Origin: Ectothiorhodospira haloalkaliphila ATCC 51935
GTDB lineage: Bacteria; Pseudomonadota; Gammaproteobacteria; Ectothiorhodospirales; Ectothiorhodospiraceae
Length of the DNA stretch: 64,000 bases
Reading direction: 5' to 3'
Assembly (NCBI RefSeq): GCF_000633935.1
Contig: NZ_KK214998.1
Location: 1,474,411 to 1,538,410, forward strand
Every line of letters begins with the position of its first letter. Within the stretch, counting starts at the first letter, position 1. A model generated the notes under the pieces. It did no database searches. It was not told where the DNA came from and was given only the letters and a program-made list of their open reading frames with translations. Below, one piece after another: positions 48,794 to 52,706 of the stretch. The translations under genes and the position numbers were made by a program.

Positions 48794-48948
48794 GATGTGC
48801 TCGATGTTTCGTTGTTTCACCGAAGCATATCGCGTTCCCCCTCGCTGGCAAACCGCATTGTTTGGTCATTTTTTCGCATCGGGCCACAATGGAGCTCTCC
48901 GGCGGCAACGGCGCCATCGACCCCGTACCCAAAGCAAGAGATCAATCC

Positions 48949-51660
48949 GTGACTGACAGCAAGCCCCTGGTCCTGGTGGACGGTTCATCCTATCTGTACC
49001 GCGCCTTTCACGCCCTGCCACCCCTGTCCAATTCCCGGGGCGAGCCCACAGGGGCCGTGCTGGGTGTGGCCAACATGCTGCGGCGGCTGATGAGCGACTA
49101 CGCGCCCGATCACATGGTCGTGGTGTTCGATGCCAAGGGGCGCACCTTCCGGGATGACCTTTATGAACAGTACAAGGCCAACCGTCCACCCATGCCCGAT
49201 GAACTGGCGGCGCAGGTGGATCCGCTGCACGAACTGGTGCGGGCCATGGGCATTCCTATCCTGGTGGTGCCGGGGGTGGAGGCGGACGATGTGATCGGCA
49301 CCCTGGCGCGGCAGGCCCGCCGGGACGGCATGGAGGTGGTGATCTCCACCGGCGACAAGGACCTGGCGCAATTGGTGGAGCCGGGTGTCACCCTGGTGAA
49401 CACCATGACGGGAACCACCCTGGATGAGGCCGGCGTGAAGGAGCGCTTTGGCGTGCCGCCATCGCTGATCGTGGACTACCTGAGCCTGGTGGGGGACACC
49501 TCGGACAATGTGCCCGGCGTGGACAAGGTGGGCCCCAAGACGGCGGTGAAATGGCTGGATGCCCACGGGGACCTGGACGCCATCATGGCCCATGCCGACG
49601 AGATCAAGGGCAAGGTGGGCGAGAACCTGCGCGCCAGCCTGGACAGCCTGCCCCTGTCCCGGGAGCTGGTCACGGTGCGCTGCGATCTGGACCTGGACCT
49701 GGCGCCCACGGGACTGGAACTGCAGCCAGCCGAGTCCGAGACCCTGCGCGGCCTGCTGGAGCGCTTCGAATTTCGCAGCTGGCTCAAGGAGCTGGGTGGC
49801 GAGGTCCAGGAGGGGGAGGGGCAGCCGGAACAGGCAGGTGCCGGGGGCGATCCCGTGGAGTACGAAACCCTGCTGGAAAAAGAGCAATTGGATCGCTGGG
49901 TGGAGAGGCTGCAAACGGCGGAGTTGTTTGCCTTCGACACCGAGACCACCAGTCTGGACTACATGCAGGCGCAGGTGGTGGGGGTTTCCTTCTCGGTTCG
50001 CCCCGGCGAGGCGGCCTATCTGCCCCTGGCCCATGATTACGCCGATGCCCCACAGCAACTGCCCCGGGAGGAGACCCTGGCCCGGCTGAAGCCCCTGCTG
50101 GAGGACCCGGACCGGCCCAAGCTGGGGCATCACCTCAAGTACGATCGCAACGTGCTGCTCAACCACGGCATCGAGCTGCGCGGCATCGCCCACGACACCA
50201 TGCTGTCGTCCTATGTGCTCAACAGCACCGCCAGCCGCCATGACATGGATACCCTGGCCGAGCGTCACCTGGGAATCCGCACCACCCATTACGAGGAGGT
50301 CGCCGGCAAGGGAGCCAAGCAGATTGCCTTCTCCCAGGTCCGCCTGGATGAGGCGGCCCCCTATGCGGCCGAGGATGCCGACGTCACCCTGCGCCTGCAT
50401 GAGTACCTCTGGGGGCGGCTTCAGGGAGAGGCGGGGCAGCGTCGTATCTACGAGGAACTGGAAATCCCCCTGGTGCCCGTGCTCTCGCGTATGGAGCGGG
50501 CCGGGGTGCGGGTGGACGCGGACCTGCTCTTCACACAGAGCCATGAACTGTCGGACCGCATGGGAGAGATCGAGCGCGAGGCCCATGAGGTGGCCGGCGG
50601 CAGTTTCAACCTGGGCTCGCCCAAGCAGATCCAGGAGATCCTGTTCGAGCGCCAGAAACTGCCCGTGGTGCGCAAGACACCCAAGGGGCAGCCCTCCACT
50701 GCGGAGGACGTGCTGGAACAGCTGGCGGCGGACTACCCGCTGCCCCGATTGATCCTGGAGTATCGCGGGCTGTCCAAGCTCAAATCCACCTATACCGACA
50801 AGCTGCCCGGGCGCATCGATGCTGACACGGGGCGGGTGCATACGTCCTATCATCAGGCGGTGACCAGCACCGGGCGCCTGTCCTCCTCCGAGCCCAACCT
50901 GCAGAATATCCCCGTGCGCACGCCCGAGGGGCGCCGCATTCGCCAGGCCTTCGTGGCGCCCCAGGGGCGGGTGATCATGGCCGCCGACTACTCGCAGATT
51001 GAATTGCGCATCATGGCCCATCTTTCCGGTGACAAGGGGCTGGTGGAGGCCTTCAGTCAGGGCATGGATATCCATCAGGCCACCGCTGCCGAGGTCTGGG
51101 GTCTGGAGCCGGACCAGGTCACCCATGAGCAGAGGCGGGCTGCCAAGGCCATCAACTTCGGCCTGATCTACGGCATGTCGGCCTTCGGGCTGGCCCGGCA
51201 GCTGGGCATCGAGCGGGGGGCCGCCCAGGAGTATGTGGATCGCTACTTTGCCCGCTATCCGGGTGTGAAGGCCTACATGGACGATACCCGTGAGCGGGCC
51301 AGGGAGCAGGGCTATGTGGAGACGGTGTTCGGTCGCCGCCTTTATCTGCCGGATATCAAGGCCCGCAATGCCCAGGTGCGCAATCAGGCAGAACGCCTGG
51401 CCATCAATGCCCCCATGCAGGGCACGGCGGCAGACATCATCAAGCGGGCCATGCTGGCGGTGGATGACTGGATCCAGTCATCCGGGCGGCCACTCACCAT
51501 GATCATGCAGGTGCATGACGAACTGGTGTTCGAGGTGGAAGAGGTGGCCGTGGAGGCGGTGCGCGAGGAACTCAGCCGGCTCATGTGCCAGGCGGCGGAG
51601 CTTGAAGTGCCGCTGGTGGTGGACGTGGGTGTGGGTGCCAATTGGGACGCGGCACACTGA
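48949..51660 (+). CDS. polA: DNA polymerase I
   Basis: PolA fills gaps and removes RNA primers. The 903-residue product starts with GTG behind AAGAG. It has the 5' nuclease domain (about 1-290; VLVDGSSYLYRAFHALPP, GVEADDVIGTLA, SGDKDLAQL-like segment). The 3'-5' exonuclease has intact acidic motifs (FAFDTETTSLDYMQAQ; DADVTLRLH), and the polymerase domain has the motifs DYSQIELR, RRAAKAINFGLIYGMSAFGLA and MQVHDELVFEV. It is followed by two sRNA genes, then by convergent engB. Confidence 0.97.
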   Translation: MTDSKPLVLVDGSSYLYRAFHALPPLSNSRGEPTGAVLGVANMLRRLMSDYAPDHMVVVFDAKGRTFRDDLYEQYKANRPPMPDELAAQVDPLHELVRAMGIPILVVPGVEADDVIGTLARQARRDGMEVVISTGDKDLAQLVEPGVTLVNTMTGTTLDEAGVKERFGVPPSLIVDYLSLVGDTSDNVPGVDKVGPKTAVKWLDAHGDLDAIMAHADEIKGKVGENLRASLDSLPLSRELVTVRCDLDLDLAPTGLELQPAESETLRGLLERFEFRSWLKELGGEVQEGEGQPEQAGAGGDPVEYETLLEKEQLDRWVERLQTAELFAFDTETTSLDYMQAQVVGVSFSVRPGEAAYLPLAHDYADAPQQLPREETLARLKPLLEDPDRPKLGHHLKYDRNVLLNHGIELRGIAHDTMLSSYVLNSTASRHDMDTLAERHLGIRTTHYEEVAGKGAKQIAFSQVRLDEAAPYAAEDADVTLRLHEYLWGRLQGEAGQRRIYEELEIPLVPVLSRMERAGVRVDADLLFTQSHELSDRMGEIEREAHEVAGGSFNLGSPKQIQEILFERQKLPVVRKTPKGQPSTAEDVLEQLAADYPLPRLILEYRGLSKLKSTYTDKLPGRIDADTGRVHTSYHQAVTSTGRLSSSEPNLQNIPVRTPEGRRIRQAFVAPQGRVIMAADYSQIELRIMAHLSGDKGLVEAFSQGMDIHQATAAEVWGLEPDQVTHEQRRAAKAINFGLIYGMSAFGLARQLGIERGAAQEYVDRYFARYPGVKAYMDDTRERAREQGYVETVFGRRLYLPDIKARNAQVRNQAERLAINAPMQGTAADIIKRAMLAVDDWIQSSGRPLTMIMQVHDELVFEVEEVAVEAVREELSRLMCQAAELEVPLVVDVGVGANWDAAH

Positions 51661-51729: not shown

Positions 51730-51756
51730 GAACTTTCCCTCGAAGGCCCTGTCTGT
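51730..51756 (+). promoter_or_regulatory. Sigma-E (AlgU/RpoE)-like promoter of the first sRNA
   Basis: GAACTT (51730-51735), a 16-nt spacer and TCTGT (51752-51756) closely fit the extracytoplasmic stress sigma factor consensus GAACTT-N16-TCTGA. Transcription would begin about 7 nt downstream, at the head of the first sRNA. The ErsA sRNA at the same locus in Pseudomonas is known to depend on AlgU. Confidence 0.65.
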
Positions 51757-51762
51757 CAGGTT

Positions 51763-51876
51763 AGGCGCTCCGGATGGGGCGCTTCCCGCTTAACCCCCTG
51801 AGCGGGATGCTCTGACTCCCCCAAGTCGAGCCCAAGCCTGGCCCCGCGTCGTTAAAGCGCCGCGGGGCTTTTTTTT
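51763..51876 (+). ncRNA. Small RNA 1 at the polA-engB locus (Spot 42/ErsA position)
   Basis: A roughly 114-nt transcript is inferred from the sigma-E-like promoter to a strong terminator. It contains a hairpin CCCGCT / AGCGGG (51785-51806) with a pyrimidine-rich loop, then an unpaired ACTCCCCCAAGTCGAGCC tract, the kind of C-rich seed used by Hfq-dependent sRNAs. The terminator ends in eight T. The second copy 169 nt downstream shares the hairpin and seed almost exactly, though no protein is encoded. Enterobacteria carry Spot 42 and Pseudomonas ErsA at this position. Targets are unknown. Confidence 0.8.
51841..51876 (+). terminator. Rho-independent terminator of sRNA 1
   Basis: The stem GCCCCGCG / CGCGGGGC (8 bp, 12-nt loop) is followed by eight T. 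It forms the 3' end of the first sRNA. Confidence 0.9.
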
Positions 51877-51899
51877 GAGCTTTACCTGACAAAAAGAGT

Positions 51900-51926
51900 G
51901 AACCATTGTCCCGGTGGGTAGTCACA
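51900..51926 (+). promoter_or_regulatory. Diverged sigma-E-like promoter of the second sRNA
   Basis: GAACCA (51900-51905), 16 nt and TCACA (51922-51926) lie at the same distance from the conserved sRNA core as the promoter of copy 1 (27 versus 28 nt). The elements match the sigma-E consensus less well. The duplication therefore seems to include the promoter, which may have weakened or changed specificity. Confidence 0.45.
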
Positions 51927-51932
51927 AGGGGT

Positions 51933-52052
51933 AAGCGCTGCAGCCCGGCGCTTCCCGCTTACCTCCCTGAGCGGGATGGCTCGCACTCCCCCAAGTCGAG
52001 CCAACCTCTGCCCCGGACCGGCCAACCCCCAATGGCCCCCGGGGCTTTTTTT
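51933..52052 (+). ncRNA. Small RNA 2, tandem paralogue of sRNA 1
   Basis: About 120 nt. From 51949 it repeats the copy 1 sequence: CGCTTCCCGCTTA, a Y-rich loop, CCTGAGCGGGATG, then CACTCCCCCAAGTCGAGCCA. Upstream, AAGCGCT parallels GGCGCT of copy 1. The terminator stem has diverged, which argues for an old duplication kept by selection on the hairpin and seed. The 3' end faces the end of engB on the other strand. Confidence 0.78.
52010..52052 (+). terminator. Rho-independent terminator of sRNA 2
   Basis: GCCCCGG (52010-52016) pairs with CCGGGGC (52039-52045), with an inner GGCC / GGCC pairing, then seven T. The polarity supports termination on the plus strand only; the minus strand has no T tract after the stem. 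Confidence 0.88.
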
Positions 52053-52061
52053 GCCTGCGTT

Positions 52062-52706
52062 TCAGCCTTCGGGTTCCGGCGTGTCGGGCGCCTGTGCCTC
52101 TGGCCCTCGGGAGGCGAATAGCCAGTGATCCAGCACTGAATGGGCATCATCCACGCCCTGCTTCTTGAGCGATGAAAAGGGTTGTACCGTGGCATCCACA
52201 TCCTCGGCACCCAGGGCGGAGGCCACCTGACGCACCGTATCCAGTGCCGGTCCACGCTTGAGCTTGTCGGCCTTGGTGAGCAGGACATGCAGGGGCAGGT
52301 GTCGCCGATGGGCCCAGCCGACCATTTGCCAGTCGTGTTCCGTGAGGGGGTGGCGGATATCCATCACCAGGATCAGTCCGCGCAGGCATTCGCGGCCCGC
52401 CAGGTATTGCTCCATCAAATGTCCCCAACGACGGCGCACCGCCTCAGGCACCTTGGCGTAACCGTATCCAGGCAAGTCCACCAGGCGGTGGTCCTCGTCC
52501 AGGGCGAAGAAGTTGATGAGCTGAGTCCTGCCAGGCGTCTTGCTGGTACGCGCCAATGCCCTTTGCTGGCACAATGTGTTGATGGCGCTGGACTTGCCAG
52601 AGTTGGAGCGGCCGGCGAAGGCGACTTCGCGCCCTGTTTCCGGTGGCAAGCCCTTGAGGCTGGCGGCACTGGTCAGGAACTCGGCCCGGGAGTAAACCGG
52701 GTTCAT
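52062..52706 (-). CDS. engB: Ribosome biogenesis GTPase EngB (YihA/YsxC)
   Basis: EngB is a small essential GTPase for large ribosomal subunit assembly. The 214-residue product has the G1 loop GRSNSGKSS, the switch region [13 protein letters not shown], the G3 motif [11 protein letters not shown], the G4 motif TKADKL and a C-terminal basic part. It reads towards polA and the sRNA genes, as in Pseudomonas and E. coli. A long acidic/proline C-terminal tail ([14 protein letters not shown]) is slightly unusual. Confidence 0.96.

Follow-up and report, generated by a model that had tools for sequence, protein, structure and literature searches.

The gap between polA and the convergent engB gene of Ectothiorhodospira haloalkaliphila contains two homologous small RNA (sRNA) genes in tandem. 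They lie in the 64,000-nucleotide stretch of DNA that was analysed, which we call the window. The interpretation that we favour, with a probability of about 0.8, is that these genes encode independently transcribed, trans-acting envelope-stress sRNAs which are related to the anti-hemB RNAs, were duplicated in the ancestor of Ectothiorhodospira, mask Shine-Dalgarno sequences and have rpoE as a likely target. In molecular terms, two RNAs, one of about 118 and one of about 124 nt, paralogues from a widespread lineage of the polA/engB locus that is related to anti-hemB (ncS04), would each be transcribed on its own. Their C-rich loops (SL1, SL2 and the terminator loop) would base-pair to G-rich Shine-Dalgarno regions and so prevent the translation of a set of mRNAs. 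With rpoE itself as one likely target, a negative-feedback loop would be closed.

The locus and the structure of the two copies

The coordinates of all features are given in Table 1. A cytochrome c gene lies beyond the polA/engB flanks of the sRNA pair. The copies are connected by two direct repeats, one of 32 nt (94% identical, spacing 169) and one of 36 nt (81% identical, spacing 170). Each copy has the same layout: the 5' hairpin (SL0) is followed by two hairpins with C-rich loops (SL1 and SL2) and by a terminator of its own, whose T run ends at 51876 in copy 1 and at 52052 in copy 2. A preliminary description of this DNA had proposed two tandem homologous sRNA genes in the polA-engB gap, each closed by a GC-rich terminator with 7-8 T. 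The repeats, the folds and the profiles of the flanking genes bear out the first point and the sequence the second. The hairpins that it described were also found again, but the genes begin upstream of them, with a promoter-like element from 51730 and 51900 that is followed by the 5' stem-loop.

Table 1. Features of the polA-engB region, in positions of the window
Feature	Position	Strand	Basis
polA, DNA polymerase I	48862..51660	+	TIGR00593, 948 bits
Putative sigma-E/AlgU-type promoter, copy 1: GAACTT (51730-51735), 16-nt spacer, TCTGT (51752-51756)	51730..51756	+	sequence, conservation, same architecture at rpoE
sRNA copy 1, predicted transcript of ~118 nt	51759..51876	+	5' end inferred from promoter; R1 and RF02837 matches, fold z -4.3, covariation
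Copy 1 SL0, 5' stem-loop	51763..51784	+	A1 helix 1: 95.3% of cells paired, 4/7 pairs changed on both sides
Copy 1 SL1, CCCGCTTAACCCCCTGAGCGGG; copy-1-specific loop CCCCCUGA	51785..51806	+	sequence, A1, covariation
Copy 1 SL2, loop ACUCCCCCAAGU	51809..51832	+	A1 helix 3: 6/6 pairs changed on both sides
Copy 1 intrinsic terminator, 8 T	51841..51876	+	sequence, fold, covariation
Putative sigma-E/AlgU-type promoter, copy 2: GAACCA (51900-51905), 16-nt spacer, TCACA (51922-51926)	51900..51926	+	sequence, conservation
sRNA copy 2, predicted transcript of ~124 nt	51929..52052	+	5' end inferred; R1 117 bits, RF02837 43.0 bits, fold z -5.0
Copy 2 SL0, 5' stem-loop	51933..51953	+	A1, covariation
Copy 2 SL1, CCCGCTTACCTCCCTGAGCGGG; ancestral-type loop CUCCCUGA	51954..51975	+	loop also in single-copy relatives and Betaproteobacteria
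Copy 2 SL2, CACUCCCCCAAGU; complement (9 nt) of the rpoE Shine-Dalgarno region	51978..52002	+	sequence comparison
Copy 2 intrinsic terminator, 7 T	52011..52052	+	sequence, fold
engB/ysxC (yihA) GTPase, convergent	52062..52706	-	TIGR03598, 242 bits

Both copies fold much more stably than dinucleotide shuffles of their sequences (z -4.3 to -5.4), and 0 of 200 shuffles were as good. We aligned 43 copies from the bacterial family as defined by GTDB (A1). This alignment, on which the covariation, promoter and tree analyses are based, yields four helices, namely the 5' stem SL0, SL1, SL2 and the terminator. In these helices 96.6% of the cells are paired, and 14 of the 28 pairs show changes on both sides. 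The covariation score of 0.272 compares with 0.138 in shuffles (0/500 as high) and with at most 0.057 in slid structures. Due to this pairing and covariation, we regard the window elements as structured RNAs. The C-rich letters sit in the loops, which read CCUCCCUGA or ACCCCCUGA in SL1 and ACUCCCCCAAGU in SL2. When the polA-engB gap was compared in related genomes, the arrangement proved to be kept across the genus and the family, with covarying stems, and the two copies are thus more than a chance arrangement.

Small protein genes might be hidden in a region of this kind, as in Spot 42, which carries a small ORF, and short ORFs of 22-71 aa do cross it. However, no ORF is common to both copies, the indels in A1 do not come in threes and the substitutions follow base pairing, which makes this explanation very improbable. 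Strong intrinsic terminators end both copies between convergent genes, so that the pair could also be read as tandem transcription terminators which insulate polA from engB and have no trans-acting role. For that task the conserved 5' stem-loops, the invariant letters of the C-rich loops, the covarying SL2 stems and promoters of their own would be superfluous, and in one relative a separate RNA with reported Hfq binding is expressed (see below); we consider this reading improbable.

Promoters of the sigma-E type

Upstream of each copy lies an element that we write as GAAC-N18-TC, i.e. a GAACNN box, a spacer of 16-17 nt and a -10 box beginning with TC. It is found 52-57 nt upstream of SL1 in 39 of the 43 family copies, compared to 1/43 in a control window, and the spacer measures 16 nt in 38 of the 39 copies that bear it. 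About 77 nt ahead of its start, the organism's own rpoE gene (TIGR02939, 310 bits) carries GAACTT-N16-TCCAT, and the same element precedes rpoE in all nine genomes of the genus that were inspected, as well as in two further genomes of the class. These bacteria very probably have their sigma-E promoters in this form. From its presence at rpoE and at both sRNA genes we infer that both sRNAs are sigma-E-dependent in vivo. As each gene would thus have a sigma-E (RpoE/AlgU-type) promoter of its own, envelope stress should induce both RNAs together with rpoE. The GAACTT box is kept in copy 1 in 8/9 genus genomes and in copy 2 in 2/10, which suggests that the -35 box of copy 2 is usually the weaker one.

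A strict pattern (GGAACTT-N16/17-TCNNA) gave three matches in the whole genome, compared to 7 + 7 in the reversed control, and none of the three is at the sRNA genes. The sRNA promoters fit the looser form that the genus has at rpoE and not the strict pattern. As a putative promoter, this loose form is supported by its conservation and not by genome-wide enrichment.

It is conceivable that the genes encode true sRNAs which are made from housekeeping promoters, or by read-through from polA and subsequent processing, and that GAAC-N18-TC is incidental. There is no clear terminator visible between polA and copy 1; relatives in Burkholderia and Comamonadaceae have other upstream elements, and the Burkholderia RNA ncS04 showed constitutive expression under the conditions tested. 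Still, an incidental element would not be expected at a fixed distance with its spacer kept, nor separately before each copy in the form that stands at rpoE, and a search of the sRNA stretch of the window for a sigma-70-like site found none. We therefore hold this alternative to be unlikely and prefer sigma-E-type promoters on both genes. Sigma-E control is thus not universal in the family, because ncS04 was unchanged in the tested conditions and has a different upstream element. Among the matches listed from named genomes, the GAAC-N18-TC element accompanies 46 of 72 relatives that are linked to engB and 6 of 40 that are not.

Relatives, locus and duplication history

At the gathering score, Rfam has no match in the window, and kinship becomes visible only at the level of E-values. 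The best match is RF02837 (anti-hemB), with 43.8 bits for copy 1 (E 8e-9) and 43.0 bits for copy 2 (E 1e-8). As both lie below the gathering score of 49.5, the copies are close relatives of RF02837 and not formal members. RF02232 (sX13) matches far more weakly, with 22.3 and 21.1 bits against a gathering score of 50. Weak matches to Scr3202, NsiR1, 6C, toxic sRNA and suhB were dismissed as chance or shared terminators. Both copies have the features of RF02837: the SL1 stem CCCGC/GCGGG, a loop ending in CCCUGA, a second stem and the terminator. Their genes adjoin engB and converge on it, as do the engB-linked loci of the named genomes. In its presumed way of working the pair resembles other sigma-E sRNAs and sRNAs with C-rich loops, and its nearest kin is anti-hemB.

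The anti-hemB family is widespread and almost unstudied, and is so far known mainly from Burkholderia. Its representative in Burkholderia cenocepacia, ncS04 (Burkholderia RNA 7), is a 105-nt transcript whose 3' end has been mapped, with a Northern signal and reported Hfq binding, and its level was unchanged, i.e. constitutive, under the tested conditions (PMC5688073). It shares with the window copies the SL1 sequence CCCGCUU..CUCCCUGAGCGGG, the core of three stems, the terminator and the site beside engB. The window copies differ from it by the C-rich loop of SL2, by being paired and by their putative promoter of the sigma-E type, an element of which none was seen upstream of the Burkholderia RNA.

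Matches to RF02837 at E <= 0.001 were obtained in 45 of the 47 genomes of the GTDB family, nine of them above the gathering score; Ectothiorhodospira mobilis (NZ_FOUO01000006.1) bears the same pair of matches. With R1, a covariance model built in this analysis, relatives were obtained from 167 of the 369 class genomes, often behind a promoter of the sigma-E type. The SL1 pattern, when searched for in named genomes, gave at least 120 stretches, and the matches listed are mostly from Betaproteobacteria, with Steroidobacteraceae and Ectothiorhodospira in addition. Among these, 74 named copies lie just past a convergent engB gene and 41 with enough flanking sequence do not; over all sets the median distance between copy and engB is 147 nt. 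Because of this linkage and the spread across the class, "anti-hemB" is best seen as an sRNA family of the engB/polA locus. Relatives of the Comamonadaceae type (L035, L043, L046, L060 and similar loci) lie away from engB; in their SL2, TGTGTGACAGCA replaces the C-rich loop, and their upstream element is different, often TTGTTAAATT, so that they form a distinct subfamily.

The same gap is occupied by other sRNAs, and the preliminary description had taken kinship to Spot 42 and ErsA as probable. Spot 42 (spf) shares the polA-engB (yihA) gap with the pair, but is known to be repressed by cAMP-CRP (cited in PMC3771888) and lacks C-rich SL1 and SL2 hairpins. Its kinship was not borne out: R1 scores it at 11.8 bits and a decoy from this locus at 9.5, and no Spot 42 match is listed by Rfam for the window at the E-value level. 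For ErsA, locus and promoter support the assumption, whereas the RNA body does not (R1 19-33 bits, no SL1 motif). The Pseudomonadaceae have an sRNA in the same gap, preceded by GAACTT-N16-TC in the corresponding position; its location and features identify it as ErsA. ErsA depends on AlgU/sigma-22 (PMC7264166, PMC5819304) and has a U-rich unstructured targeting region (PMC5819304). The ErsA of Pseudomonas aeruginosa has the gap, the GAACTT-N16-TC promoter, a terminator with a C-rich loop and a similar length in common with the window copies. By these sequence features, the pair appears to have the address and the switch of ErsA, but not its body. The anti-hemB family is thereby tied to ErsA by locus and promoter, and an obscure family gains a plausible job in envelope stress. 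In the open-access literature we found neither an RpoE-dependent sRNA of the polA locus outside Pseudomonas nor sRNAs of Ectothiorhodospira.

The sX13 RNA of Xanthomonas (RF02232) always lies downstream of polA and has three stems and apical C-rich loops; the window copies share this position and this type of loop. In the letters of SL2, sX13 and the window copies are close (GACUCCUCCCCAAGUC and GACUCCCCCAAGUC). Unlike what is proposed for the pair, sX13 acts without Hfq, and no tandem pair has been described for it. At one locus of the class (L194), RF02837 (42.4 bits) and sX13 (34.0 bits) match at the same place, which is a hint that the families may be united at a deeper level. The authors of the sX13 study asked whether sRNAs with C-rich loops are encoded at the polA locus of other bacteria, too (PMC3771888). 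Our data answer this with yes across much of the class (the 167 of 369 genomes mentioned above, often with a sigma-E-type promoter). As a tentative extension, which we regard as less probable than its opposite, an ancestral sigma-E-switched envelope-stress sRNA of the polA-engB gap may underlie anti-hemB, ErsA, sX13 and the present pair, and the twins in Ectothiorhodospira may feed back on rpoE translation through one seed that they share and another that has diverged. If this is true, one regulatory locus has retained both address and switch, with its RNA body rebuilt in different lineages.

Both copies are present in 9 of 10 genus genomes (G002 has one). When the 43 copies were placed in a tree, those of the genus fell into one group for copy 1 (support 90/96) and another for copy 2 (78/79), and the two copies of a second genus (g4) likewise form one group each. 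The two copies of one genome share 52-70% identity, whereas orthologues average 77% and 83%. As the copies form groups and orthologues are closer to each other than paralogues, the pair goes back to a single old duplication with no sign of homogenisation, which predates the diversification of the genus, each copy having been inherited vertically. In g4, the copies lie on opposite strands near polA in L007, L008 and L016 and in tandem in the sister genomes L010 and L011; the opposite-strand layout may be due to a local inversion or an independent rearrangement.

A tandem pair, which had been called unusual, is not unique, as arrays recur among relatives. In class genome G307 (L195:1130-1930), five tandem family copies follow directly downstream of polA, several with a GAACTTT...TC element of their own and an enlarged SL2 C-loop, the C-rich loop of SL1 being lost. 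A tandem pair with 123 nt between the copies adjoins engB in Nitrosospira briensis (L093:763-886, minus strand). Tandem copies and arrays of up to five might bring to mind a dispersed repeat or a mobile, REP-like palindrome. Against this, R1 finds these two copies only in the whole genome (E <= 0.001), genomes across the class keep the locus and the copies have been passed on vertically, so that we give this explanation almost no credence and treat the copies as duplicated genes. Such natural duplicates and arrays are material for the study of how sRNA seeds diverge. Elsewhere in the genome there is a third, weak RF02837-like match of 28 bits (G000:C4:398320-398383, minus strand, L003), without an R1 match at E <= 0.001.

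Pairing surfaces and candidate targets

The window pair should mask Shine-Dalgarno regions, by analogy with two groups of sRNAs. In sX13, C-rich loops act on G-rich sites near gene starts (PMC3771888), and in the Neisseria sibling sRNAs NgncR_162/163 (NmsR), an adjacent pair with three stem-loops each, the SL2 loop blocks ribosome-binding sites (PMC9973317). The Neisseria siblings resemble the window pair in being adjacent homologues with three stem-loops. They are 78% mutually identical and have a metabolic role, whereas pairs of the window type have 52-70% identity, lie between polA and engB and have sigma-E-type promoters. The hfq gene is present in this genome, and both RNAs may use Hfq.

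The preliminary description had seen a conserved seed in the two copies and had proposed shared targets under different control. SL2 is indeed mostly common to both copies, but SL1 differs consistently: across the genus, copy 1 has the loop CCCCCUGA or CCCCCUAG, and copy 2 keeps CUCCCUGA, as in single-copy relatives and in Betaproteobacteria. The proposal is thus mostly reversed. Control would be shared in kind, with a sigma-E-type promoter on both genes and a weaker -35 box in copy 2; the SL2 pairing surface is largely shared and the SL1 surface has diverged. As SL2 is mostly shared while SL1 and the -35 strength differ, targets and dose should be overlapping and not identical.

The best candidate target that we found is the rpoE leader, and feedback on rpoE is a good hypothesis, not a result. 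The leader contains GAGGGGGAGUGCCCGCAUG, a perfect 9-nt match to CACUCCCCC in SL2 of copy 2, and it matches copy 1 over 8 nt. The SL2 loop of copy 2 reaches -23.9 kcal/mol with the rpoE start region and beats 258 of 258 sampled starts from a background of 384 kb of genome stretches (window included), in which the starts are approximate; this rank is not a blind test, because the candidate had been noticed while its promoter was inspected. For the loop of copy 1, eight sampled starts are equal to or better than rpoE, with the gene starts again approximate. The 8-nt SL2 complement GGGGGAGT is kept in six of nine rpoE leaders of the genus and altered in the other three. Genome-wide, it occurs near or before an ATG in 21 places, about 3-4 of which are plausible real starts. 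The clear ones, named by eye, belong to rpoE, a SiaC-like gene and a LON-domain-like gene. The SiaC-like gene (L223, G000:C2:587465-587480), which would encode a small regulatory protein and carries GGGGGAGT at its start, is a second candidate target.

For the SL1 loop, the complement TCAGGGAG occurs before an ATG 34 times, compared to 2 in the control, and most of the 30 matches that were followed are not convincing genes. Those that may be real, again named by eye, are leads only: a sodium:solute symporter-like gene (L253), a YdbL-like gene (L269), a glutathionyl-hydroquinone reductase-like gene (L256) and a choloylglycine-hydrolase-like gene (L260).
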